Part shown: one piece after another, positions 6,191 to 42,339 of the stretch
How the letters are laid out: the number at the start of each line of letters is the position of its first letter
Position numbering within the stretch: position 1 is the first letter of the stretch
Source: a virus
Reading direction: 5' to 3' (one strand)
DNA length: 42,594 bases
Virus record (IMG/VR): IMGVR_UViG_3300049846_000701
Coordinates: 1 to 42,594 of that record
Program-made: the position numbers and the translations under genes
Notes under the pieces: model-generated
What the model saw: only the letters and a program-made list of their open reading frames with translations
What the model was told of the DNA's origin: nothing
The model's database searches: none

Positions 6191-6743
6191 GGGCAACCGC
6201 CTAGAGCGTAAGATAGCCGAGATGTATCGTAGATACGATATAGACAAGAAGGCTACTAGGATGCCTATGAGTGGTGCAATGACCCACTTCAAGGGTGACA
6301 TACTCAAGCCTAACGACTACGCCTATGTAGATGAGTGTAAGAATCAGGAACGAGTAGAACTATGGAAATGGTGGGAACAAGCCCAGTCACAAGCCTCTGG
6401 CGCCCAGATACCCCTCCTACATATAAGTGGTAACAACCGCCCAATACTTACCGTCATGTCAGCAGAAGCCTACTTCGACCTCAGAAGAGAGATACTTGAC
6501 CTTTACCAAATCATAAGGGAAGTACAAGAGAGGAGGAAAAAGATGGGAAGGGCTAAGGTAATCGAAGTGATAGGCGTAGATAAGAAGGATAACTATATAA
6601 GAACCTATGTGTTGCTTAGTGATGGTACTGAGGCGCAGGGCTATGGGAAGTTTAGTGTTGGTGATGAAGTAATTTACTTCTACGACCAGAGGTGGGATGT
6701 AATTAAAGTAGAAGGAGTAAGAAATGACCGCAAAATTCGTTAG
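6159..6743 (+). CDS. Hjc-like PD-(D/E)XK nuclease with C-terminal beta domain
   Basis: 194 aa. Residues 8-115 carry the archaeal Holliday-junction-resolvase-like pattern: KGNRLERKI with E16, FKGDI with D47, and VDECK with E59-x-K61, followed by a helical part. This suggests a metal-dependent endonuclease that cuts branched recombination or replication intermediates. Residues 129-194 form a separate beta-rich module (VGDEVIYFYDQRW) that can also be translated alone from an internal start at 6543. It lies downstream of the Cas4-like nuclease and possible SSB, giving a compact recombination set. Confidence 0.75.
   Translation: MATTPASKKAKGNRLERKIAEMYRRYDIDKKATRMPMSGAMTHFKGDILKPNDYAYVDECKNQERVELWKWWEQAQSQASGAQIPLLHISGNNRPILTVMSAEAYFDLRREILDLYQIIREVQERRKKMGRAKVIEVIGVDKKDNYIRTYVLLSDGTEAQGYGKFSVGDEVIYFYDQRWDVIKVEGVRNDRKIR
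6543..6743 (+). CDS. Possible internal in-frame gene for the C-terminal domain (66 aa)
   Basis: Within the Hjc-like gene and in the same frame, ATG 6543 is preceded by a perfect SD (AGGAGG, 6531-6536) with 6-nt spacing. The product would be the beta-rich domain alone, starting MGRAKVIEVIGVD. The surrounding codons encode RERRKK-like linker residues (VQERRKK), so the SD may be partly incidental, but its strength and spacing match the best starts in the window. Confidence 0.45.
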   Translation: MGRAKVIEVIGVDKKDNYIRTYVLLSDGTEAQGYGKFSVGDEVIYFYDQRWDVIKVEGVRNDRKIR

Positions 6744-13318: not shown

Positions 13319-14076
13319 TTGAATAGCCTTTCCCATAGTTTCTTAAACCAGCCTTCGACCACAGTTTTTTCATCTGCTTGGACTGGCACTTCCTTAATAA
13401 TCTCGACTGGTTTTTCTACAATCTTGGTGACTTCTTTTACAATCTCTTTTGGTGGTTTAGCCTGTTCGTTAGCGAGAGCTTTCTTAACGTCAGCTAGTTG
13501 CTTGCGAACTGAGTCGGCTTCAGCTTTTCCTACTTGGAAGAATTGTTGCTTTGGTCGTCCTCTCCAGCTTGCTATTTCAGATGCACTTGGTTTAACGCCT
13601 CGTAGCATTAGATAAGCTTCAATAATCTCTTGGTCTGTTTGAAACACGTTGTTACCTCCTGTGGTTGGTGTTGAATTAAATTTCCCTGCAAGCCAATCGA
13701 CTGGCGATATGAAACTGTTAAATGTTGTAGGGTAAGTTCCCTCTTTGTTGATATCCCAGTGAACGTGTGGACCTGTTGAGAGTCCTGTAGTTCCTGACTT
13801 GGCTACTTCTTGTCCCTCTGATACTGCTCCGTTGTTTCTTGAGAATGATGAGTTGTGCATGAGTCGGTGAGTAAAGCCTTGAGCGTCTCGTATGACTACC
13901 ATGTTTCCGCCAGTTCTACTGACTACGTTGGTAAGTGTTCCCGATACTGGTGCAAGGACTTGCCTACCTGAAGGTACTGCATAGTCTACGCCTGAGTGCC
14001 TACCGAATAGAGCGTATGAGTCTGGTACGCCAAACCCTGTTGTTATGGTGTATGGTGTGTTTACTGGTCTTCGCAT
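13315..14076 (-). CDS. M23-family metallopeptidase (endolysin)
   Basis: 253 aa. Residues 10-110 are an M23 (LytM/lysostaphin-type) zinc endopeptidase: H27-x3-D31 in HSGVDY, H74, and H104-x-H106 in GPHVHWD. It cuts peptidoglycan cross-bridges. The tail (140-253) begins with a helical segment and has a Lys/Glu/Val-rich repeat region (KEIVKEVTKIVEKPVEIIKE), probably an extended stalk or wall-binding linker. No signal peptide. It precedes the holin with a 4-nt overlap. Confidence 0.9.
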   Translation of the reverse strand: MRRPVNTPYTITTGFGVPDSYALFGRHSGVDYAVPSGRQVLAPVSGTLTNVVSRTGGNMVVIRDAQGFTHRLMHNSSFSRNNGAVSEGQEVAKSGTTGLSTGPHVHWDINKEGTYPTTFNSFISPVDWLAGKFNSTPTTGGNNVFQTDQEIIEAYLMLRGVKPSASEIASWRGRPKQQFFQVGKAEADSVRKQLADVKKALANEQAKPPKEIVKEVTKIVEKPVEIIKEVPVQADEKTVVEGWFKKLWERLFK

Positions 14077-19320: not shown

Positions 19321-19778
19321 TATAGATAACCCCCCGCAAGTGCTTGTTGCTGAAGTGCGTACTCCCTATTTGACTGAGCTATTTGGTTTTGTAGTTGTTG
19401 CTGTTGAATAAAGTTGCCCTGTAATGCGTTGGCTAGCTGTGCGATAGCGCTGGCTTGGTCTACTTGTAGGCCGCCAATATCCTTATATATACCGCCAATG
19501 TCTTTAGCGTTCTGAGCGGCTAGTTGCCCTCTCTGCCCTGTAATGTCAGCGGCTACTTGTGCCTGGCCATAAACTGGAATAGTAGAGCGTAGTATACCCC
19601 TAGAATTAGAGTCTTCTAATACGTTTTGAAAGCCTGCTTGCTGTTGTCCTTGGAGAGCATTAAACTGGGCGGCATAAGATTGGTTGATTGGTTTTATCTG
19701 ACCCTGGAGAGCCCTTATCTGCTGGGTATACCCTGGAGAGAGTTGACTTTGCGCTGTTCTTATGTATGAAGTTGCCAT
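19320..19778 (-). CDS. Internal virion protein, Gln-rich
   Basis: 152 aa, starts MATSYIRTAQSQLSPGYTQQ, Gln-rich helices with a central Gly segment (DIGGIYKDIGG). Related in composition to the next gene and probably part of the same ejection complex. It is the first gene after an internal promoter (19809-19838); only a weak SD (AAAG) is present. Confidence 0.6.
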   Translation of the reverse strand: MATSYIRTAQSQLSPGYTQQIRALQGQIKPINQSYAAQFNALQGQQQAGFQNVLEDSNSRGILRSTIPVYGQAQVAADITGQRGQLAAQNAKDIGGIYKDIGGLQVDQASAIAQLANALQGNFIQQQQLQNQIAQSNREYALQQQALAGGYL

Positions 19779-23309: not shown

Positions 23310-23840
23310 TTATCCTTCTTTCTTTGCCGTGAAGTTACACCATCTCTGGCCTGGTTTCATTTTTCTTTTAAATGTTATGTAGTAGTGGCAAGGTACACAT
23401 AACGTTCTGCCATTATCAACATTATAGCGCAACTCTTCATTATCGGACCACTTATTTATATGGTCTGCGTGCAGAGTCCCGCCATATTGTTCACAGACTT
23501 GACAGGTGTAATTATCTCTATCAAATACTTTGCTTCTCCAACTTTTATATCCTAGGGTCCCCATAGCTTGGTGTCGCGCAGTACCAGTACCACCCTTATA
23601 GTTCCATGGCGTAACGTGCGGCCTTGGTCCTTTTTTGCCCGTTTTAATCCCAGTTAGCCCCTTATTCCACGGGCTAATACCTTCCTTTAGTTTATTACCT
23701 CTCATCATGCTCCTATACATAGGCTTGGTACAATCACGTGAACAAAACCTACAGGCACTGTACTTAAGGTCGGAGGGGTATACGGAAAAGACTTTTTTAC
23801 AGGTTTCACATGTTCTCTCTATTCTGGTCGATTTTCTCAT
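23310..23840 (-). CDS. HNH homing endonuclease with NUMOD3-type segment
   Basis: 176 aa. N-terminal zinc finger (C11, C14, C30, C33/C37), a NUMOD3-like DNA-binding segment (GISPWNKGLTG), and a C-terminal HNH nuclease: C113/C116, HADH with H124-H127, N140/N143, and C148-x2-C151-H152. Free-standing homing endonucleases of this type insert between phage genes. It has its own extended -10 promoter and SD (AAGGAAGG), and separates the adaptor gene from its expected start. The flanks are too short for a group I intron. Confidence 0.85.
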   Translation of the reverse strand: MRKSTRIERTCETCKKVFSVYPSDLKYSACRFCSRDCTKPMYRSMMRGNKLKEGISPWNKGLTGIKTGKKGPRPHVTPWNYKGGTGTARHQAMGTLGYKSWRSKVFDRDNYTCQVCEQYGGTLHADHINKWSDNEELRYNVDNGRTLCVPCHYYITFKRKMKPGQRWCNFTAKKEG

Positions 23841-31955: not shown

Positions 31956-32596
31956 AAGTAATACCTAAAATAATTAAATGCTACATCTGGGCGCTCGTAC
32001 TTTGTGGTCTTGTCAAAGTCCCCACGCCACGTTGAATCATCTGTGTAGTGTTTATAGAAGTACATCGGTCTAGTCAGAAATACCTCGCTTTTTAACAGTG
32101 GTGCTACTCTTGTAGCCCAGTTATAGTCCTCTGGTACTCCTCCTTGATGAACAAAGGGTACTTGTCTAGCAATGCTGGTTCTTATTGGGTTAAGGTGTGA
32201 GGCATTTCTGTAAAACCCTTCATCGTCTTCATCCCATTTTTCGTACTTAATACTGTGGAAGGTTGGTTTAAGCGGTTCGTCATTGTTGTATGCTTGCATA
32301 CGCCAGCCAACATAGTCTGGGTCTTGTTTTAGGGCATCCATGATATCATCACAGTAATATTCTGGAAGTTCATCGTCATCATCAACGAAAGCCATATACT
32401 TTCCTCTGGCATCGTCCATAAGTGCTTGGCGTATTTCTGCTAGTGGGCGTTCGCCATTATTCCAGTAAGCAACTACCTCTATTCGCCCATCAAATTTTTC
32501 TACTTGTGGCATGAGTTGTGCTAAGAGCTTGACAAACTTCTCATAACGCCTGCCTATGGTACAGATTAAGATACTAAGTTCAACTGGTTTGCTCAT
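31952..32596 (-). CDS. Family 2 glycosyltransferase
   Basis: 214 aa. ELSILICTIGRR is the GT2 start, ARGKYMAFVDDDDELP carries the DxD-type metal site, and GGVPEDYNWATR the catalytic ED. Typical short cytosolic GT-A enzyme. Its start overlaps the previous GT gene by 17 nt, indicating one transcription unit. Confidence 0.8.
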   Translation of the reverse strand: MSKPVELSILICTIGRRYEKFVKLLAQLMPQVEKFDGRIEVVAYWNNGERPLAEIRQALMDDARGKYMAFVDDDDELPEYYCDDIMDALKQDPDYVGWRMQAYNNDEPLKPTFHSIKYEKWDEDDEGFYRNASHLNPIRTSIARQVPFVHQGGVPEDYNWATRVAPLLKSEVFLTRPMYFYKHYTDDSTWRGDFDKTTKYERPDVAFNYFRYYL

Positions 32597-33314
32597 TTAT
32601 AAACTCCCTTAACATTTCTATCTCATCTTCCCTCTCTATTCTTTTTTCTCTACTGTAATAAATTAAGTCTGGGTGGTCTCTTTCGTGCCGTTTAAGACGT
32701 TCCTCGGTGTTGTTGTCCATAGGTGATTTGCCAAGCGAATAGTGCATGTGTTCTATAGTATGATTATGTATGTACGTGCGAACACCTAACTTCTCGGCTA
32801 CGTCATTAAACCAAGTATCATTATAGTCCGAAACAAAGTATGGCGGAACAAATCTGCCAATAACATTAGTCCAGTTGCGGTGTATAAAGCCGTGTGTGCC
32901 AAATTCATTGCGTTGAGACTCGTTACTATAATCGTTACACCAAGCAAAACATATCTTACCTGGGCGGGCGTTTATAGCCTCTCGAATAGCTGTATCCCAG
33001 CCTTTAGTCCTGAATACAATGTCATCCCCACAGTGCATGAATATGTCACCAGTGGCTTTTTTCCAGCATCTATTCCATTTAATAGATAGATTAACCTTAC
33101 CGTTGTGTTTGCGCGGTCCTCTTACGAAGATTACCTGAGATGTGCGAAGTTTACGTTTGCTATAGCTCGGGTCATCATTATCTATATAAGCTACAAGCTC
33201 TAGTGAGCGTGGGTTATCAGCGGTGTCTAGGGCTGAGTGCCACATTCTAGCTAACATATCTGGACGTTCTCTCGTTGGTAAGAGAAGGCTTATTCGTTGA
33301 AGCTTGCTACCCAT
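32580..33314 (-). CDS. Family 2-like glycosyltransferase
   Basis: 244 aa. ISLLLPTRERPDML at the start, LVAYIDNDDP, and KATGDIFMHCGDDIVFRTKG with the acidic metal-binding pair; YFVSDYNDTWFNDVAEKLG probably carries the acceptor-site Asp. C-terminus basic and helical. Overlaps the large GT gene by 25 nt. Confidence 0.75.
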   Translation of the reverse strand: MGSKLQRISLLLPTRERPDMLARMWHSALDTADNPRSLELVAYIDNDDPSYSKRKLRTSQVIFVRGPRKHNGKVNLSIKWNRCWKKATGDIFMHCGDDIVFRTKGWDTAIREAINARPGKICFAWCNDYSNESQRNEFGTHGFIHRNWTNVIGRFVPPYFVSDYNDTWFNDVAEKLGVRTYIHNHTIEHMHYSLGKSPMDNNTEERLKRHERDHPDLIYYSREKRIEREDEIEMLREFINEQTS

Positions 33315-35647
33315 TGTTCAGCCACCGCCCTCCAACTATTAGTTCTTGCCCACTCCATCATATCTTTTCTGATAGCTTCCTGTTTCTCTGGGTGTTTCAA
33401 CATATCTATAAGCGCTTCTTTAAAAGGTTTGAGGAACTCTTCATCCCCAGCGCCTACAAGTGTGCCTTCTTTTTGCTCTTTCATCGGGAGTTTAATACCA
33501 TATTGTACGGTTTCGTCTAATGCAGCAAAGTTGCTTGATACAGGTACGGCTCCACCAGCTTGTGCTTTAATAGCGGTGATACAGTAAATCTCTGGGAACG
33601 GACAAGGGTATGCCCATACACCTGACTCGAAGATGTGTTGCATTATCTCTTTTTGCCCAACCTTACCGTGGTCGGTAACACCGTCTAGTTTCTGGGCTTT
33701 AATCATCATGTCGTCCATCCACTTCATTCTTTCGGGGTTGCCTTTGTGAACAGCGTCATAGGATTCACGGCCATAGTAAACATCAAGCGTGGCTTCGGGC
33801 ACAGCTTTCTTAACCTCGGGCCAAACTTCATAGATATAAGCCAGTCCTCTAACGTGTGATGAACCATAAAAGACTTTGTGAGGGTCGCGTTTAATACCCA
33901 TTTTATCCATTTCCTCAAATTCTTCTGGGTCGATACCGTTAGCTGAGAGCATAATCTTCTCATCTGGGATATTAGGGAATAGTGAGCGGTGATATTTAGA
34001 TAGGACTAAAACTTTATCAATGTTATTAAGCCTGTTTGGGGTGAACTCACCTACGTCCATAACGTCGTGTAGCCAGAGGTATTTCTTACGGGCTTTAATC
34101 TTTCTCTCAAATATAAATGGAGCTCTCCATGCTATAAATATGTCGAACTCATCTTCTAGGTTACAATCCCAGAAGTTTCGCCACATAACACCATTCTCAT
34201 CTACGCCAGCGTTTGCTCCTGGTTTAGCAAACACAACTACTTTATACCCTAGGTCTGAGAGGTGTTTAGATATGCGTATAATAGCTTCTTCTGAGCCACC
34301 TATGCCGTCTTTGAGACTCCATGGTCCCCATTCGTCTATCATAGTGTCACCAGTCATAATGGCTATCGTTCTCTTAGGCCACTTAACACCCTTACCGTCG
34401 TTGCGAAGTGCTGAGACTATTGGATTATCTGCTAGATGGTTGGGTAATGAGTCTAGGACTTTCATAGCTTTACGCTTTTGCTTCTTATCCATAAATTTCT
34501 TGAAACGCGTGATGGCATCTTGTAGTTCTGTGCGGTCTTTATCTATCTGAATAACCATATCGGTGTATTCTTTAACACCTGGGTCTTTCTTCTTGTATTT
34601 ACGTGCTTTCTTAGCGTATTTAGCGGCTTTAGGTAGATAACTGCCACCAAGATTAAGGTAGGCATCTGCTAATAGTAAATAAGTCCTGAATGTGTAAGAC
34701 ATCGGGTTACGTTCTAGGGTTGTGAGGTTTTTATCCATCTTCTCTACATACTCTAGCCAAATTATTGCCTTATCGTACTTCTTCAGTTCTATTTCTAGGC
34801 TGCCCATTTCAACTCTAGGTTCTGGGTTGGCTGGGTCTTCGGCTACAGCTCTTGCGAAATACTCTTTAGCCTGACTTCTCTCACCTTTGTCTAAGGCTAT
34901 CCTACCCATCTTTGTGAGAGCGACACTTCTCTCTTGGTCCCAGCCAGATACAGTTAGGTAGTCTGTAAATAGTTCTAGTGCTCTATCCTGTTCACCCGCG
35001 TCCATGAGGGTTGAGGCTAAGTAATAAAATGTGCGTGGGTCTGGGTCTTCTGCCTCATCGGCAAGCTGTTTCTCCAATAAATTGATATTGCGCTCAAAGC
35101 TTCTTTGTGTTCTGTCTGCTTCTGCATGATGTATAACAATGAAGTCTTTAGTGGCTCCCTGAGTTACTCCCCTTTTTTCTATAAGGGTTTCATGTATTCT
35201 ACCCTTCCATTCATGGGAGTCATTGTTCTTAAACATTCTTGCTACTAGGTGAACGGTCTGTGGGTTATCTTCCTCGTCTCTGTCGTATAGGTAATCTACA
35301 AATATGGAATCATACCTGTCTGATACTTTTGCAACCTCTTTAATCTTTTCGGGATTATCAATTGTATCATCAGCATCTAGCCAGAGTATCCAATCATAGT
35401 CTTCTGGGACTTGGGCTAGGTTAGCGTTACGAGCTAAAGCAAAGTTGTCTTCCCATGTAGTCCGTATAACATTTACCTTGTACTCATCTAATAGCTGTGT
35501 GAGCTTTTCTGAGGACTCTGCACCCTCTTTCTTGTTAACATTGATAAATATACCGTCTACGTGTTTTGCAACGCTCTGAAGGCTTCTACGAAGGTGCTCT
35601 GCTTCGTCGTCTGAATCTTTTATGATATATATTAGTGCTACTTTCAT
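33290..35647 (-). CDS. Bifunctional glycosyltransferase: GT2 - TPR - GT4 fusion
   Basis: 785 aa from ATG 35647 (MKVALIYIIKDSDDEAEHL). An upstream in-frame start would add 17 basic residues and ignore the ATGA overlap with the mini gene. Residues 1-180: GT2 domain with WILWLDADDTID. Residues 200-400: TPR-like helices (ARTFYYLASTLMDAGEQDRA-type repeats). Residues 420-785: GT-B/GT4 domain with GIGGSEEAIIRISKHLSDLG, NGIDPEEF and a late FPEIYCITAIKAQAGG donor site. Such fusions build repeat glycans or glycosylate proteins. Confidence 0.8.
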   Translation of the reverse strand: MKVALIYIIKDSDDEAEHLRRSLQSVAKHVDGIFINVNKKEGAESSEKLTQLLDEYKVNVIRTTWEDNFALARNANLAQVPEDYDWILWLDADDTIDNPEKIKEVAKVSDRYDSIFVDYLYDRDEEDNPQTVHLVARMFKNNDSHEWKGRIHETLIEKRGVTQGATKDFIVIHHAEADRTQRSFERNINLLEKQLADEAEDPDPRTFYYLASTLMDAGEQDRALELFTDYLTVSGWDQERSVALTKMGRIALDKGERSQAKEYFARAVAEDPANPEPRVEMGSLEIELKKYDKAIIWLEYVEKMDKNLTTLERNPMSYTFRTYLLLADAYLNLGGSYLPKAAKYAKKARKYKKKDPGVKEYTDMVIQIDKDRTELQDAITRFKKFMDKKQKRKAMKVLDSLPNHLADNPIVSALRNDGKGVKWPKRTIAIMTGDTMIDEWGPWSLKDGIGGSEEAIIRISKHLSDLGYKVVVFAKPGANAGVDENGVMWRNFWDCNLEDEFDIFIAWRAPFIFERKIKARKKYLWLHDVMDVGEFTPNRLNNIDKVLVLSKYHRSLFPNIPDEKIMLSANGIDPEEFEEMDKMGIKRDPHKVFYGSSHVRGLAYIYEVWPEVKKAVPEATLDVYYGRESYDAVHKGNPERMKWMDDMMIKAQKLDGVTDHGKVGQKEIMQHIFESGVWAYPCPFPEIYCITAIKAQAGGAVPVSSNFAALDETVQYGIKLPMKEQKEGTLVGAGDEEFLKPFKEALIDMLKHPEKQEAIRKDMMEWARTNSWRAVAEQWVASFNE

Positions 35648-35724
35648 TTTCTTCCGAAACACATGTGCCCGTTTCTGGGATAGTATGCGTGACCGCAATT
35701 TCTACACCACTTGATGTAGGGCAC
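35644..35724 (-). CDS. Miniature zinc-knuckle-type protein (26 aa, GTG start)
   Basis: MPYIKWCRNCGHAYYPRNGH, then MCFGRK. Cys7, Cys10, a His and Cys22 could bind zinc. GTG overlaps the TAG of the upstream gene, AGGAG lies 10 nt before it, and the TGA overlaps the ATG of the GT fusion gene. Couplings on both sides suggest it is real. Not recognised. Confidence 0.45.
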   Translation of the reverse strand: MPYIKWCRNCGHAYYPRNGHMCFGRK

Positions 35725-36110
35725 TAATATTGTTCTCCTATTAGAAGCTCTGGGAAGTTCTTACAGAACCACGCAAAGTGCTTTTTATTAGTAAACATGA
35801 GAGGGTAGGACTTTTCGAGAAACTGCCCAATCTCTACTGGTAATTCCATCATATAGCGTCTATTGGACTCTTTATTAATGAGCCCAAATTTGTTATCTTT
35901 GCCAGATTCAGCTATGCGTGCCCTGGCTGCATCTCTGTGAAACTTAATCATACCTGGGTTAGCTTTATCATACTGAACTAATACTTTACGAATAATCTCT
36001 TTGTCGCCAGCGGTTGGTAGACCAATAGCATCGCCTAGATTTTTAACATTGCCCGCTTCATTTGCGGCCTTGGATACATCTTTTAGCCATTGAATGTTAT
36101 CCTTCTTCAT
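35724..36110 (-). CDS. Hypothetical protein after the capsid gene (128 aa), leaderless
   Basis: Starts MKKDNIQWLKDVSKAANEAG; basic and helical, with AGDKEIIRKVLVQYDKANPG and a Phe/Trp-rich end (HFAWFCKNFPELL). Not recognised. It has no SD; its ATG is 8 nt after the extended -10 TGGTATAAT, so the mRNA probably begins at or within 2 nt of the ATG. First gene of the unit that continues into the glycan cassette. Confidence 0.6.
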   Translation of the reverse strand: MKKDNIQWLKDVSKAANEAGNVKNLGDAIGLPTAGDKEIIRKVLVQYDKANPGMIKFHRDAARARIAESGKDNKFGLINKESNRRYMMELPVEIGQFLEKSYPLMFTNKKHFAWFCKNFPELLIGEQY

Positions 36111-36118
36111 TAAGCAAC

Positions 36119-36127
36119 ATTATACCA
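36119..36127 (-). promoter_or_regulatory. Late promoter for the glycan/tail unit (extended -10)
   Basis: The minus strand reads TGGTATAAT (36127-36119), identical to the element at 9174. The -35 is weak. It lies between the capsid terminator and the ATG at 36110. Predicted start 36111-36112, which leaves no room for an SD. Confidence 0.6.
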
Positions 36128-36147
36128 CTTATGTAAAAAAGTTAATA

Positions 36148-36174
36148 CAAAAAGAGGAACTTTCGTTCCCCTCT
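36148..36174 (-). terminator. Terminator after the major capsid gene
   Basis: On the minus strand, AGAGGGGAAC, loop GAAA, GTTCCTCT, then TTTTTG. A GNRA-capped stem with a T-run ends or attenuates the scaffold-capsid transcript before a new promoter at 36119. Confidence 0.75.
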
Positions 36175-36205
36175 CTGTTTGGGCTGTGGATAAACCTTTA
36201 TCGGC

Positions 36206-37117
36206 TTATATGTAGCCAGCACGATAAGCTGAGCTCTTCTCATTGAGTGCTTCAAGAGTAAGTTCAGCCTCTAACATACCTCGTTTTGCAGAACCAACGG
36301 TTGCTAGAGGGATGTGCTGTGGACGACCATCGGTCAAGTAAGATACGCGCCACTTGCTAGAGTCAACCAACAGGATACCCTTGTTTCCAGCTGTTGTTGG
36401 AACTTCTCGCTCAAGGTAAACGGTTACAACACCGAAGTCACTTTCGTAGACTGAGAATGTGTTGTAGAGCTTGTTGCCTTCAGCTTTTGTAAACTTGGTA
36501 GAACCAGCTGTGTAACCAGAGATTACTCTCTTTAGAGATGCACCACAGAAAGCTTTGTCAACGCTTATGTCAGTACCACTGTCGTAGATACCTTGTAAGA
36601 TGTCGTTGAACTCAGTTTCTGAAAGTGATGTACCTGAGCTACGTGCTGTTTTGTTTGTCGTGATAAGTGCGATTGCACCGTTCAAACGACGAGCGACACC
36701 TGAAGAACCTGAAGCAGTTGTTCCTGCTACAAGAGCTTTTTCGATGTCACGGGCGAGTTCCTTCATTTTCTTACCTAATTGGTAAGTGTAAGGGTCGTTC
36801 ATCCCGTAGTGAGACACACGCATTTCAGTGTTTGAAACACGAACGTCTTTTTGGAATAGCTGTACGATGTTTACTGAACGGCTTGGGACTACAGCGTCGC
36901 TGAAGGTTATGTCTTGACCTTCAGCCTGTGCGTTGTCTGCTGCTGCTGCTAGTGTGTCGTTTAGCCATTGGTGCAGTGTGTTGACTGCTTTGGATTCAGC
37001 AAGAGCTGAGTAGAATGGTGTACTGGTATAATCAACGTTTGTGATTAGGTCAGTTACGTCCTCTACCATTGTCTTGCCTTGGTCCATAGGTGTAATTAAA
37101 CCAATTGTTGCTGGCAT
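36206..37117 (-). CDS. Major capsid protein (DUF5309 / SU10-type)
   Basis: 303 aa. MPATIGLITPMDQGKTMVED, TPFYSALAESKAVNTLHQWL and SVNIVQLFQKDVRVSNTEMR are characteristic of the DUF5309 capsid family, an HK97-fold shell protein found in phage SU10 and relatives; the domain-swap-like end LTLEALNEKSSAYRAGYI also fits. It assembles on the scaffold encoded upstream. AAAGG lies about 11 nt before the ATG. A terminator follows directly. Confidence 0.9.
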   Translation of the reverse strand: MPATIGLITPMDQGKTMVEDVTDLITNVDYTSTPFYSALAESKAVNTLHQWLNDTLAAAADNAQAEGQDITFSDAVVPSRSVNIVQLFQKDVRVSNTEMRVSHYGMNDPYTYQLGKKMKELARDIEKALVAGTTASGSSGVARRLNGAIALITTNKTARSSGTSLSETEFNDILQGIYDSGTDISVDKAFCGASLKRVISGYTAGSTKFTKAEGNKLYNTFSVYESDFGVVTVYLEREVPTTAGNKGILLVDSSKWRVSYLTDGRPQHIPLATVGSAKRGMLEAELTLEALNEKSSAYRAGYI

Positions 37118-37156
37118 TTTATTTTGACCTTTCTATTTTCTATTAAAGTACGATGT

Positions 37157-37927
37157 TTAACCCATCATAGACTTTATGCCTGGGAACCGCTTTGAGATGA
37201 GGTCGTTAAGGCCTTCCTCACTTTGTAACTTGGCTCTCATTTGGTCTTGCGTCATTTCTTCGGCTTGACTTGGCTGTGCCTGTTGGCGCGCACTCTCTAC
37301 TTGGGCGGCTTGTTTTTCAACCATCTTAGCTTGAGCTTGGGCTGCACCCTGCTTCTGAGCTTCGGACACAACTTTTTGTGAAGTCATGTTCTTGCTCTTC
37401 GCATAAGCGTATTCCAGCTTAGCTTCGTGGCTGTTGATTTGGTTTATAAGTGGGTCCTTTGTCAAGATTTCGTTCATCGCTGCTGCGTCTGCATCGGCGT
37501 GAGTCATTATGAATGACTGAACGGTCAAGATAGTTTCCATCTTATTAACCTTTTCTGCCACAGGGTCGGGTTCTGGTATATATGGGTCATCTGGTTGTGC
37601 TGGTGCTGCTATAGCAGGGTCAGCGGCAAATGCCTCATTTAGAATCCGAGTAAGTTCAGCTCTCTCCTGGCTAATCCTACTTGCCTCGGAACTGGCGTTT
37701 ATGTATGCCTTTTCTAGTTCCTCTGGTGTTTTATATTTGCCAGCGTACAGCTTATCTTCTACCGTTTCCTCAGCGTTTACCTCAACTGTTTGTTTTTCCT
37801 CTACAGGTTGAGTTGCCTCGGGGGCTTCGTTTGTCTGCGTAGCGGCCATGCTTGTGTCCGTAACATCTGAGGTTGCCGTTTGTACGGGCTCAGCTGCTAC
37901 TGGAGCTTGGGTTTCGTCATCGCTCAC
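37157..37927 (-). CDS. Scaffolding protein, leaderless GTG start
   Basis: 256 aa. The N-terminal 60 residues are an acidic, Thr/Glu/Ala-rich disordered tail, the middle has Asp/Pro-rich DDPYIPEPDPVAEKV, and the end is a Gln/Ala/Lys coiled coil with a short tip (DLISKRFPGIKSMMG), the usual layout of capsid scaffolds. It is directly upstream of the capsid gene. Start is GTG 37927, 8 nt after the -10 TATAAA, with no SD, so the mRNA is probably leaderless. Confidence 0.8.
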   Translation of the reverse strand: MSDDETQAPVAAEPVQTATSDVTDTSMAATQTNEAPEATQPVEEKQTVEVNAEETVEDKLYAGKYKTPEELEKAYINASSEASRISQERAELTRILNEAFAADPAIAAPAQPDDPYIPEPDPVAEKVNKMETILTVQSFIMTHADADAAAMNEILTKDPLINQINSHEAKLEYAYAKSKNMTSQKVVSEAQKQGAAQAQAKMVEKQAAQVESARQQAQPSQAEEMTQDQMRAKLQSEEGLNDLISKRFPGIKSMMG

Positions 37928-37935
37928 AATTGAAG

Positions 37936-37963
37936 TTTATACTTATAAAGCTTACGTTGTCAA
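37936..37963 (-). promoter_or_regulatory. Late promoter for scaffold and capsid
   Basis: On the minus strand, TTGACA (37963-37958), 16-bp spacer, TATAAA (37941-37936). Predicted start about 37929, within 2 nt of the scaffold GTG. It begins inside the stop codon of the upstream gene, so the scaffold-capsid pair can be boosted separately. Confidence 0.75.
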
Positions 37964-38265
37964 GTTTGGGGATTATAGAGTTCTTTTAGTTGGTCGCTAA
38001 GGTGATTAACCATATCTGCTTTACCGCGTATCTCTTGAATTGGCTGTAGTCTAGCCACTATCTCACCACGAACCTTACAAAATTCATCCCAGCTGTTTAT
38101 ATTGTCACCGTCTTTATTGGTGGTAAACGCCCAAATCATTTTCTGGGCTACAGTTTCTATTAGTAAATTAAATAATATATTAGCCTCATCGTTCATTACG
38201 ACGTCTTGGAATTTTCTATATTGAGCTATCTCAGCCTTAATAGCTGCTTCCACATCTTCTTGCAT
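37960..38265 (-). CDS. Hypothetical head-module protein (101 aa)
   Basis: Starts MQEDVEAAIKAEIAQYRKFQ; all-helical, with IRGKADMVNHLSDQLKEL at the end. SD AAAGGAGG. Not recognised; its place between portal and scaffold is often taken by a small head-assembly protein. Confidence 0.55.
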   Translation of the reverse strand: MQEDVEAAIKAEIAQYRKFQDVVMNDEANILFNLLIETVAQKMIWAFTTNKDGDNINSWDEFCKVRGEIVARLQPIQEIRGKADMVNHLSDQLKELYNPQT

Positions 38266-38276
38266 TTAGTCCTCCT

Positions 38277-40178
38277 TTACTGTTGACCTTGAAGTAGGGC
38301 TGCAAGTTCGTTATCTGCTCTTACGCCCTGTAATGTTTCTGGGGTTTGTAACTGTGATTGTGCGGCCTGAGAAAGTGTTGCTACTGTTTGTGCGTCCTGC
38401 TGCTGTTGCGCGGTTGCTTGCTGAGCTTGTTGTTGTTCTGTCGCTATGCCGAGTGCCTTATTAAGTTCGTCAAGTATTTCTTGTTTGCCAGGAAGTTCAA
38501 ATGTGTCTAGTACCATCCTGATTACTGGCATTATTATCCCAGGGTTTGTCTGTATAACTGGTGAAATAATTGGGGTAATATACTGGAGCAATTGTACTGC
38601 TTCTTGTCGTGCAGCTATCTCGTCTTTAGGTAGCATGGAGCCAGTTTCAATATCAATGAAGAAGTCTCCACGAACATCCTCTGGCAAAAGCTTTACCCAT
38701 TCTTGGGCGCCACGCTCTCCAACAACCTGTATTACTTTCTCTTGGTCTAAGAACTGTTGGTTAAGGGCAAAAACAAGCTGACCTATTTGTTTAACGGCTT
38801 CTTCAAGTAGGGCTATCTTAACAGCAAAGCGCTTTCCAGCCATGCTCTGTGCTGTTACTACCTCAGTAGCACTCCTTCGAGAGCTACCCTCTGGTAATAG
38901 ACCAATGCCGATTTCGTCAATAGCTACTGACATCTTTATATCACGCGCTGTGCGCTCTTCTATATCACTAGAAGTACCCTGTAGTTGTGGTAGGGCAAAT
39001 ACGTCCATGCCATTCATATCAGACACTTGCCAGATATTACCAGGAGCCATAACTGCACTGTTAGGGTTCCTTAATGTACCAGGTACCATGCGTATAACTG
39101 GGTTAAGGGCGAGATTATCATAGTCACGGCGTTGGTTTCTAATGGAGTTTATCTCTCGTTGTAGTGGGTCAATAACTGAAGCTTCGCTTTGTCCATAGAA
39201 CTTATGTGGGTCTCGGTAGTCATCCAGCTCTACAAAAGGAATACGTTTGTGTGCGTAAGGATTTGGGCTGTCTCGTAGTACAACTTTCTGATTTGCTACT
39301 ACGACGAGTCTATCTGCTTCCCAATACTCTAGGATTTCTACAAGTTCTTTCTTATTGTCTGGTATAGCAGAACCATTATTGAAACGAACATTATCTTTGA
39401 AGTCGTCATGTACGAAATTAGCCCCACCGTCGTTAGTCTTTTGGCTACTTTTAATCTTATCTACGTTTTTATAGTTGGTGTTCTGTTTAACTTCTTCTAG
39501 TGGAACTGTCTTGCGGTGAATAACGTACATTGCGTCGTTAAGTGAGGTCGCGTCTGGGTCTACATAGATATCAAATGGGTCAACAATATCTACTTGTGGC
39601 TCATCATTGGCCACTTCACTCTTCTTAACGGTTTTGTAAGTAATCTCATCATCTTTGCCAACGACTGGCTCTTCAATTGTGGTTGTTTTGGTCTTGAAGT
39701 TCCAAGTAACTTTAGCAAAACCCTTTGAGTACATGAGTGAGTCTTTAATGTAGTCATACATTTTAGTTCGCATACCCATGCGTTCCCACTGGTAAGTAAG
39801 TAGCTTGTTAATGACAGTGGCTTGTTCGGGGGTTGATATCTCATAACCACCCTGTACAACGGGAGCCTGCGGTTCTACTGGTGTTGGTTCACCCCTGCTA
39901 ACAGCTCTCCACTTAGGGTCACGAGCAAATACTTTAGGAATGATGGTCTCTATAACGGTGAATGTCCAAGGAATGAACAGTTTTGAGCGCCAAGGATATA
40001 TAGATGAGTCTAATACACCCCTCCAGTTATTGTATGAGCGCTCCCAAACAGGTTCTTGTTCCTGTTCTCGAAAGTTTTTAGCACTCTTAAACCTATTATT
40101 TACTAGGCCGAGACACTGTTTCTCATAGTCCTCTGTGTTTTTATCTTCTTTTTTCTTAGAATACTTTTCTTTTTTCAT
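38277..40178 (-). CDS. Portal protein (SU10-type)
   Basis: 633 aa. The wing/stem features typical of podoviral portals of the SU10 type are seen: WERSYNNWRGVLDSSIYPWR, VDIVDPFDIYVDPDATSLND, PYAHKRIPFVELDDYRDPHK-like segments, and YGQSEASVIDPLQREINSIR. It ends in a Gln-rich crown (QQQAQQATAQQQQ). It forms the dodecameric DNA gate and docks the terminase and adaptor. It follows TerL with a 23-nt gap and has AAAGG as SD. Confidence 0.85.
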   Translation of the reverse strand: MKKEKYSKKKEDKNTEDYEKQCLGLVNNRFKSAKNFREQEQEPVWERSYNNWRGVLDSSIYPWRSKLFIPWTFTVIETIIPKVFARDPKWRAVSRGEPTPVEPQAPVVQGGYEISTPEQATVINKLLTYQWERMGMRTKMYDYIKDSLMYSKGFAKVTWNFKTKTTTIEEPVVGKDDEITYKTVKKSEVANDEPQVDIVDPFDIYVDPDATSLNDAMYVIHRKTVPLEEVKQNTNYKNVDKIKSSQKTNDGGANFVHDDFKDNVRFNNGSAIPDNKKELVEILEYWEADRLVVVANQKVVLRDSPNPYAHKRIPFVELDDYRDPHKFYGQSEASVIDPLQREINSIRNQRRDYDNLALNPVIRMVPGTLRNPNSAVMAPGNIWQVSDMNGMDVFALPQLQGTSSDIEERTARDIKMSVAIDEIGIGLLPEGSSRRSATEVVTAQSMAGKRFAVKIALLEEAVKQIGQLVFALNQQFLDQEKVIQVVGERGAQEWVKLLPEDVRGDFFIDIETGSMLPKDEIAARQEAVQLLQYITPIISPVIQTNPGIIMPVIRMVLDTFELPGKQEILDELNKALGIATEQQQAQQATAQQQQDAQTVATLSQAAQSQLQTPETLQGVRADNELAALLQGQQ

Positions 40179-40201
40179 AGTTTATACCTTTTGTGATTAT
40201 A

Positions 40202-41530
40202 TCAGTAGCCCGTCGAACTATCAACAGCTCCATTATGTAGATATGTGAGTTCCTCATCCTCTATCTCTTGTTTATAACTAATAACAAAGTACCTTAGTGC
40301 GTCCATAAGGTGATTATTCTTGTCTTCTGGGAGGTTTACAGGGTCTCCAAGCCTGTCTTTACGCCATGAATACGACATAAACTCCTTAATTGTCCCCTTA
40401 CAGCGTGGGTGTACTATAATTTTGTCTTCTTTTAGTAATTGTTGTACTCGATTTATACCCGCCACTAGCCAGTTGGCGTTAGAGGCACCAGGGGCTTTCT
40501 CGTTTTTCTTAACTGGTATGGAATATATGCCATAGGTTGATAGGTCCATTATCTGTTGTTTAGCTGCTGAGTCAGAATAGGTGGCTATAAAGTATCTGTG
40601 GGCTCTTTTTTGTTTAATAAGTTCGGCTAGTTCTGACGTATAGAGGTTTGAGGCATATATTTCATCAAATATGTGTATAATACCGTCTCTGTCTATGCCT
40701 ATAAATGGTACGGCGTCTGGGTCGGTAGCACCAAAGTCAATGGCGTTGTAGAAACTCCAGTTGTCATCAACCTCAAACTCCTGTATGTGCTTCTTATCGT
40801 CAAAACCAGTATAGATAAGGCCAGTAAACTTGGCAAAGTCAGCCATATATTCCTGGGTAAAGAACTCTTCTGTAAGGCGTTCTCGTTCTTTGTCTAGGTT
40901 TTCTTTAGGTATAAGGGGGTTGTCATAAGAAGTAAAGTGAAAAGTCTTCCAGTCTTTGTCTCCGCTGGCTTCTAGGTCAACAGCATCATCCCAGAATTTT
41001 TTGAAATGATTAGCAACACCATTCGGAGTGGTAATAAAAATAGCCCAGCCGTTTGTCTGGACAAGCATAGGTGAGATAATCTTATTCCATACGTGCTCTT
41101 TCTGGAAGGCGTATTCGTCAAGTATGACACCCTTTAGCCCCGCACCACGAAGTTTATCCTCACGGTCAGAACCTTTAAACTCTATAATTGAGGTTTTATC
41201 CCCACGGAGTGTTCTAATCTCTAGTATAAGTTCATTGTCGTTTTGTTTAAGTACGAGTTCTTTGGGTATATATTCTCCTACAAGGTCGCGCCAGTAGATG
41301 CTCTTAGCCTGGGTGTACTCTGGGGCGATTATCCAATACCTACCTGGGTTGTGTAATGCTTCTCTTAATACGATGTTTAGCGCTAGGGCAGACTTACCAA
41401 AACGTCGTCCAGCTCGTATAACGAGATAGCGGTGTTTAAGAGATGCTTCGGCTATTTCTCTCTGCCCTGCGTGAGGAGCGAAGTCTATGGTGGCCTTATT
41501 CTGCTGCTTTATCTTGTCTAAGTTCGTCAT
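40202..41530 (-). CDS. Terminase large subunit
   Basis: 442 aa. Walker A RAGRRFGKSALA (G41, K46, S47), Walker B KGVILDEYAF near residue 140, a coupling SFITTPNG-like motif (AIFITTPNGVANHF), and the C-terminal RNase H-type nuclease acids in NAIDFGATDPDAVPFIGID, ATYSDSAAKQQ and NHLMDALRYF. It powers DNA packaging and cuts the concatemer. It overlaps the small subunit gene by 35 nt and precedes the portal gene. Confidence 0.92.
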   Translation of the reverse strand: MTNLDKIKQQNKATIDFAPHAGQREIAEASLKHRYLVIRAGRRFGKSALALNIVLREALHNPGRYWIIAPEYTQAKSIYWRDLVGEYIPKELVLKQNDNELILEIRTLRGDKTSIIEFKGSDREDKLRGAGLKGVILDEYAFQKEHVWNKIISPMLVQTNGWAIFITTPNGVANHFKKFWDDAVDLEASGDKDWKTFHFTSYDNPLIPKENLDKERERLTEEFFTQEYMADFAKFTGLIYTGFDDKKHIQEFEVDDNWSFYNAIDFGATDPDAVPFIGIDRDGIIHIFDEIYASNLYTSELAELIKQKRAHRYFIATYSDSAAKQQIMDLSTYGIYSIPVKKNEKAPGASNANWLVAGINRVQQLLKEDKIIVHPRCKGTIKEFMSYSWRKDRLGDPVNLPEDKNNHLMDALRYFVISYKQEIEDEELTYLHNGAVDSSTGY

Positions 41531-41960
41531 TGTCTACGTCTATTATCTTTCTCTCTTGTACTTCCCTGCCTGAGTCAAAAAAGGCGTTCTTCACTTGGAG
41601 TTGTAGTGTTGGGCGTTCGTTCTTACTCCAGCCATGTAGTTCTAGGATGTTCATGGTGGCGAGACGTTTAGCTCCTAGTTCGTCGTCTTGTTCTGCGACC
41701 TTCTTTAATTGTAATACAGCCCATTCAGGTGTGGCTTTATGCATCTCTAGGGCATCATTAATTGCTTGTTGGATGTGTGGCTTGCTAAATTTCTGAGAAG
41801 CAGCTACCTGTGCAGCGTCTTTATTGTTGACAGAATAGCCAGCTTCCTTCCAAGCCGCTAGTTGTGTCTTACCCTCTACTCTGGCTTTAACTAATTTCTT
41901 TTCTCTGATATTGAGTTCTTTCTTTTTAGGTTGTGGTCTAATAGCTTTTTTCTTAGGCAT
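41496..41960 (-). CDS. Terminase small subunit
   Basis: 154 aa. A basic N-terminus (KKKAIRPQPKKKELNIREKK), then KARVEGKTQLAAWKEAGYSV, an HTH-like region typical of TerS, a middle helical oligomerisation part (KPHIQQAINDALEMH) and an acidic end. It recognises packaging DNA. SD AGGGAAG. It overlaps TerL by 35 nt and the RHH gene by 8 nt. Confidence 0.8.
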   Translation of the reverse strand: MPKKKAIRPQPKKKELNIREKKLVKARVEGKTQLAAWKEAGYSVNNKDAAQVAASQKFSKPHIQQAINDALEMHKATPEWAVLQLKKVAEQDDELGAKRLATMNILELHGWSKNERPTLQLQVKNAFFDSGREVQERKIIDVDNDELRQDKAAE

Positions 41961-42303
41961 CTACTTCCCTTACCTCTCCTGTCAGTATATTAACATATAC
42001 CATCTGTGAGACGTTCCACTGCCAGTGTTTACATGGCTTAACCTTGTTTAAGCAACACGCCCGTGCAAAGTTGTTTAATCCTTCTGCTGGGCTGGGGTTT
42101 TTCTTTTTGGGCTGTTTAATAGAAGAATCTGGTATCTCCCATTCCGAGCGAAGCGAGGAAACGCTGTGGCCGTTCTTCTTAGCATCGTCGCTTGTGAACG
42201 TATGGGTGGCGTAATACTCGTCTAGGAGTTTGTTTATTAGTCCGCTTTTAGATGGTTCGTTGTTTAACCTTTCTTCGTTTGTTTTATTTATGTATATGTT
42301 CAT
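41953..42303 (-). CDS. Ribbon-helix-helix protein, probable late regulator
   Basis: 116 aa from ATG 42303. MNIYINKTNEERLNNEPSKS, then GLINKLLDEYY, fits an RHH fold: a short strand, a basic/acidic helix, a turn and a second helix. The C-terminus has ACCLNKVKPCKHWQWN, with clustered Cys and His. Longer starts up to 42396 are unlikely, because the promoter lies there. The ATG is 7 nt after the -10 and no SD exists. First gene of the late (packaging) operon; probably controls its own promoter. Confidence 0.65.
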   Translation of the reverse strand: MNIYINKTNEERLNNEPSKSGLINKLLDEYYATHTFTSDDAKKNGHSVSSLRSEWEIPDSSIKQPKKKNPSPAEGLNNFARACCLNKVKPCKHWQWNVSQMVYVNILTGEVREVDA

Positions 42304-42333
42304 GTTCATGACTATACGCATGTTCATGTTCAT
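42296..42333. repeat. 14-bp direct repeats around the late -10 element
   Basis: ATGTTCATGTTCAT occurs exactly at 42296-42309 and 42320-42333, with the -10 element in the 10-bp gap. Each copy contains a 6-bp unit repeated. RHH regulators usually bind short tandem repeats, and the gene downstream encodes an RHH protein, so this is a likely operator. Confidence 0.65.
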
Positions 42334-42339
42334 AGTCAA
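42311..42339 (-). promoter_or_regulatory. Late promoter for RHH-terminase-portal
   Basis: On the minus strand, TTGACT (42339-42334), 17-bp spacer, TATAGT (42316-42311). Predicted start about 42304, at the ATG of the RHH gene. The spacer and the start region are the 14-bp direct repeats, so a bound RHH protein would block it. Confidence 0.75.

Follow-up and report, generated by a model that had tools for sequence, protein, structure and literature searches.

Promoters adjoin three SD-less starts on the late strand

The window analyzed here is the complete 42,594-nt stretch of the virus record IMGVR_UViG_3300049846_000701. On its late strand, three genes begin without an SD sequence, at ATG 42303, GTG 37927, and ATG 36110, and each is preceded by a sigma70-type promoter whose -10 element ends 6–8 nt upstream of the start codon (Table 1), in agreement with the preliminary description, which gave 7–8 nt. 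From this distance (hereafter the gap), transcription is expected to start on the codon or within approximately 0–3 nt of it. Pairing energy with the anti-SD was 0 for ATG 42303 and GTG 37927 and -2.8 kcal/mol for ATG 36110. Two traits of bacterial leaderless genes of the TANNNT type, the position of the -10 and the absence of a usable SD, were found at all three sites. The extended -10 of ATG 36110 is without a good -35 (TTAACT at a spacer of 15).

Table 1. Coordinates of the promoters and genes of the late region, and of GCTTATTGA sites in the relatives G004 and L003
Feature	Position	Strand	Basis or remark
Promoter TTGACT-17-TATAGT, 7 nt 5' of ATG 42303	42311..42339	-	sequence; same architecture in L004
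-35 TTGACT	42339-42334	-	
-10 TATAGT	42316-42311	-	
116-aa first gene of packaging unit, SD-less ATG 42303, predicted leaderless	41953..42303	-	
Portal promoter TTGATA-17-TGATATAAT, 17 nt 5' of ATG 40178	40196..40224	-	short leader, not leaderless
Portal gene, ATG 40178, ~11-nt leader with AGG	38277..40178	-	PHROG portal matches
Promoter TTGACA + TAAACT or TATAAA, 5' of GTG 37927	37934..37963	-	TTGA kept in orthologues
-35 TTGACA	37963-37958	-	
-10, option 1: TAAACT	37939-37934	-	spacer 18, gap 6
-10, option 2: TATAAA	37941-37936	-	spacer 16, gap 8
Scaffold-like protein gene, SD-less GTG start, predicted leaderless	37157..37927	-	between portal module and capsid gene; orthologue alignment
Intrinsic-terminator-like hairpin + U-tract, 3' of capsid gene, 5' of 36110 promoter	36147..36178	-	14 pairs
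Extended -10 TGGTATAAT, 8 nt 5' of ATG 36110	36119..36127	-	
128-aa gene preceding glycosyltransferase genes, predicted leaderless or with 1-2-nt leader	35724..36110	-	
GCTTATTGA, 30 nt to start codon, G004	792 (scaffold), 8139, 9136, 19033, 37229		
GCTTATTGA, 30 nt to start codon, L003	1493 (portal), 4801 (scaffold), 6562		frame at 6562 runs off contig
GCTTATTGA, 33 nt to start codon, G004	36250 (terS), 39631 (portal)		

Searches against Pfam and PHROGs returned no match for the 116-aa gene, giving no confirmation of its earlier RHH label, and no named family for the scaffold-like protein. No relative of the 128-aa protein was recovered by a pattern search; its homologues were taken from loci retrieved with other queries. 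The claim that almost all other genes carry a clear SD proved overstated: 12 of the 41 late-strand starts pair more weakly than -4.5 kcal/mol, some of these being ATGA-coupled, and a clear SD was found at 14 of 17 early-strand starts.

Three further observations concern this part of the window. ATGAAC repeats (42301-42333, - strand) overlap the 42303 promoter and place several in-frame ATG codons around its -10, among which only ATG 42303 sits at the expected RNA start. The contig end (42440-42594) is pyrimidine-rich and gene-poor and possibly lies near the genome end. Late-region glycosyltransferase genes (32580-35698, - strand; matches to PHROG 13126 and 14945) perhaps modify the virion or host surface.

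Leadered promoters occur in the same late region

The strongest promoter of the region, absent from the earlier list, is that of the portal gene, which is followed by a short leader. Other late-strand promoters were found upstream of 15109, 19778, and 23840 at gaps of 22, 30, and 32, giving leaders of 20–30 nt, and early-strand promoters upstream of 3697 and 8204 at gaps of 26 and 27. Most genes behind these leadered promoters bear an SD; that at 19778 does not. The preliminary description had proposed that the first genes of all late units are leaderless, as a deliberate late mode. This was too strong, given the leadered portal, 19778, 23840, and 15109 genes and the SD-led orthologues of the 36110 gene in two relatives (L009 and L007). 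The tail genes include one for an HNH endonuclease (23310-23840, - strand), likely a homing endonuclease, with a promoter of its own and a start preceded by an SD.

Promoter spacing is concentrated in SD-less genes of related phages

Gene calls came from a simple script in which the choice of start was blind to promoter scores, and promoters were scored with a simple consensus made for the present analysis. As background, 589 late-strand ATG triplets were scanned, and a promoter at a gap of 5–9 was present in 3.6% of them at a score of at least 8, in 1.2% at 10 or above, and in 0.3% at 11 or above. For the three of 41 starts in the window alone, P fell from 0.18 at a promoter score of 8 to 0.032 at 9, 0.013 at 10, and 0.0004 at 11; the coincidence within the window is weak evidence.

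The comparison was extended to 12 related phages, using promoters that scored at least 9 at a gap of 5–9 and an expectation drawn from gaps of 14–63. Among 145 SD-less genes, 16 had such a promoter against 2.5 expected (P = 2e-7, a value too small by an unknown factor, as the phages are akin and homologous genes were counted repeatedly, so that counts are not independent). No excess was seen in 232 SD genes (2 promoters vs 3.6 expected) or in the E. coli control (150 kb; 0). The modal gap across the 12 phages was 6. No clear excess was seen in phages at greater distance or in loci of Patescibacteria genomes (2 vs 1.6 at score 8).

The layout is conserved at the scaffold gene and variable at other genes

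Relatives were collected through terminase, capsid, and portal searches, which yielded about a dozen related contigs and L087, and their start regions were taken from tblastn alignments. No near match was found among named phages when the first 25 kb of the window was compared. In one relative (L010), the terminase large subunit (398-2584, + strand; tblastn pieces at 398-1600 and 2468-2584) is split by an in-frame, intein-like insertion with a homing-endonuclease segment.

Ten orthologues of the scaffold gene, counting that of the window, share 39–48% identity and align at the protein level from residue 1; in the relatives checked, the frame offers no start earlier than this codon. TTGA begins 34–39 nt upstream of the start in all ten, compared with 25 of 377 called genes overall. 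A -10 at a gap of 6–9 was accepted by the scorer in seven (the window, L003, L007, L008, L010, L011, and L012), no nearby -10 was accepted in L009 and G004, and that picked in L004 was weak; by eye, candidates can be read as TTAAAT (gap 9) in L009, TTTACT (gap 6) in G004, and TTAAAT (gap 6) in L004. Nine of the ten starts are without an SD. A profile search for more scaffold genes recovered only the nine already known and hence supplied no fresh test set.

At other genes, leaderless-type and leadered states swap between relatives, the scaffold being the exception with its promoter spacing kept in 10 of 10. Portal orthologues have a gap of 6–9 nt in L003, L005, L006, L008, and L010 and are leadered in the window, L004, L007, L009, L011, and L012. 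The 36110 gene has the leaderless-type layout in the window (gap 8), L082 (gap 8), and L087 (gap 7). For the 42303 gene, the homologue in L004 reads TTGACT-17-TACAAT-7-ATG, so that the gap is 7 in both known copies. SD-bearing starts in relatives had been named beforehand as evidence against leaderless initiation. They were found at the 36110 gene in two of four relatives; the sole relative found for 42303 has none, and at the scaffold gene only one of nine relatives comes close (L007, with SD-like pairing of -5.6 kcal/mol).

A repeated promoter stands at fixed distance from start codons in two relatives

The most distinctive feature of the case is a promoter of fixed spacing in G004 and L003. 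The motif GCTTATTGA occurs 13 times in contig G004, where 0.3 copies are expected, and three times in L003. Eight of these copies lie exactly 30 nt, and two lie 33 nt, from a start codon. Among the other copies, the one at 14035 precedes a leader that carries an SD; at five more, no gene begins at that distance. The layout in this subclade is GCTTATTGA, 18 nt, TANNNT, 6 nt, and the start codon, a distance to the codon close to that of the promoters of the other phages; with TANNNT ending 6 nt upstream, +1 is expected to fall on the start codon. A scan of the whole collection for GCTTATTGA followed by ATG found 36 stretches at gap 6 and 44 at the control gap of 12, which places single matches at chance level; only L003 and G004 had several matches within a single contig. 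This promoter family would allow a phage late regulon to be read directly from sequence.

A Patescibacteria host is probable

We take a Patescibacteria bacterium to be the probable host. L087, the one contig that provides the host link, belongs to a MAG titled Patescibacteria group bacterium and encodes a capsid protein 85% identical to that of the window; portal matches in Patescibacteria genomes were remote and confined to 6 of 380 of the phylum. The Patescibacteria MAG with the capsid match, G001, has two 16S matches (L097 and L098), one full-length and the other much poorer, which may reflect a mixed bin or an insertion-bearing second gene.

We looked for the same promoter layout in cellular genes. 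In the candidate host MAG G001, 20 cases were counted against 8.2 expected at score 8 (P = 8e-4) and 11 against 4.5 at score 9. Other Patescibacteria fragments gave 20 vs 9.4 at score 8 and 7 vs 5.2 at score 9, and the Patescibacteria genome G016 (420 kb of its single 826-kb contig) gave 5 vs 2.6, which is not significant. The suggestion that the host handles leaderless mRNA well has some support in the moderate excess in the candidate host MAG, weaker than that in the phages, but a complete relative fell short of significance (6 vs 3.7).

Scaffold starts are GUG in three phages, suggesting a host that would accept GUG on leaderless mRNA. In mycobacteria, AUG and GUG both work on such mRNAs (PMC4633059), whereas leaderless GUG is much less efficient in E. 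coli (PMC9031893). Loss of ribosomal protein S1 was considered as a cause of leaderless translation and rejected, 18 of 19 genomes having a multi-domain S1-like match, albeit below the family cut-off. A search of the available literature for leaderless mRNA in Patescibacteria or their phages found no report.

Probable leaderless initiation and its alternatives

We consider it likely that these sites are true promoters with RNA starts approximately 0–3 nt from the codon. The promoters of the window phage resemble ordinary host sigma70-type sites; a scan of approximately 33 window proteins revealed neither a sigma factor nor an RNA polymerase, and the window gave neither a tRNA nor an Rfam match. 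The promoters would most likely be used by host RNA polymerase, which would start on or beside the start codon, and the ribosome would then bind the 5'-terminal AUG or GUG. The first gene of several late units would thus be leaderless, and the genes downstream in each unit would rely on an SD or on translational coupling. As a prediction, leaderless or near-leaderless starts are well supported; the DNA itself displays promoter-like sequence, its spacing, the lack of an SD, and conservation, and from these we further infer that the promoters are used, that use is late, where exactly the RNA 5' ends lie, that translation is leaderless, and that the host is a member of Patescibacteria.

A sub-case, compatible with this reading, is that RNA starts 1–5 nt upstream and yields very short, unstructured leaders. 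We regard this as less likely than not: gaps of 8–9 nt (36110; L006, L010, and L011) would leave 1–3 nt with the usual 7-nt discriminator, but the modal gap of 6 puts +1 on the start codon. It is improbable that the promoters are real and the spacing incidental, with translation mainly from longer read-through transcripts coupled to the preceding gene. The scaffold start of the window does lie 32 nt past the stop of a 101-aa gene, no terminator was detected in the interval, and intergenic distances are short in several relatives. However, the spacing is preserved in diverged relatives and is base-exact at most G004 and L003 sites, and terminator-like hairpins stand directly upstream of the promoters of 36110, the L010 scaffold, and L009 terS, where a gene should need a promoter of its own. 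That AT-rich upstream DNA merely yields promoter look-alikes before mis-called SD-less starts is very improbable, for although a scan of the region found only 28 sites vs 23.6 in shuffles and the window alone is weakly significant, the sharp spacing peak is confined to SD-less genes, a long motif recurs at fixed spacing, and alignment fixes the scaffold start codons.

Returning to leaderless initiation, we propose only tentatively that some Patescibacteria and their phages use it regularly for promoter-proximal genes, and that one phage subclade has a dedicated late promoter with its +1 at the start codon. If so, a dedicated promoter would couple transcriptional and translational control of the late regulon. 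Leaderless late translation is a clear, testable prediction for phages of a bacterial group that has been little studied and is mostly uncultured. Starts of this kind may be misassigned by gene-calling programs that depend on SD scores.

Comparison with known systems

Leaderless middle and late phage mRNA is already known from the Thermus thermophilus phage phiYS40. A review describes most middle and late mRNAs of this phage as leaderless and connects this with higher IF2 and lower IF3 during infection (PMC3594737, citing Sevostyanova et al. 2007). In that account the leaderless state is reported from experiment, whereas in the window phage it is predicted. A majority of leaderless late transcripts is also not what the window displays, with three leaderless-type promoters and the leadered ones of the portal, 15109, 19778, and 23840; in the window phage and its relatives, both kinds of late promoter stand side by side. 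Most sites in these phages combine a -35 with a -10, a difference from phiYS40 promoters.

Bacterial leaderless genes, which are widespread, carry TANNNT about 12 bp upstream of the start codon (PMC3160421). They are common in Deinococcus-Thermus, where the -10 adjoins the ORF and is aided by a -35 at 17 bp (PMC12340547). The signal and its position in the TANNNT genes of Actinobacteria and Deinococcus-Thermus are as in the window phage, but those are cellular genes of other phyla and the present ones are phage genes. The lambda cI gene, translated from a 5'-terminal AUG, is a phage example (PMC9031893, PMC3160421); it is a single regulatory gene, whereas in the window phage the predicted leaderless starts belong to promoter-proximal structural genes.
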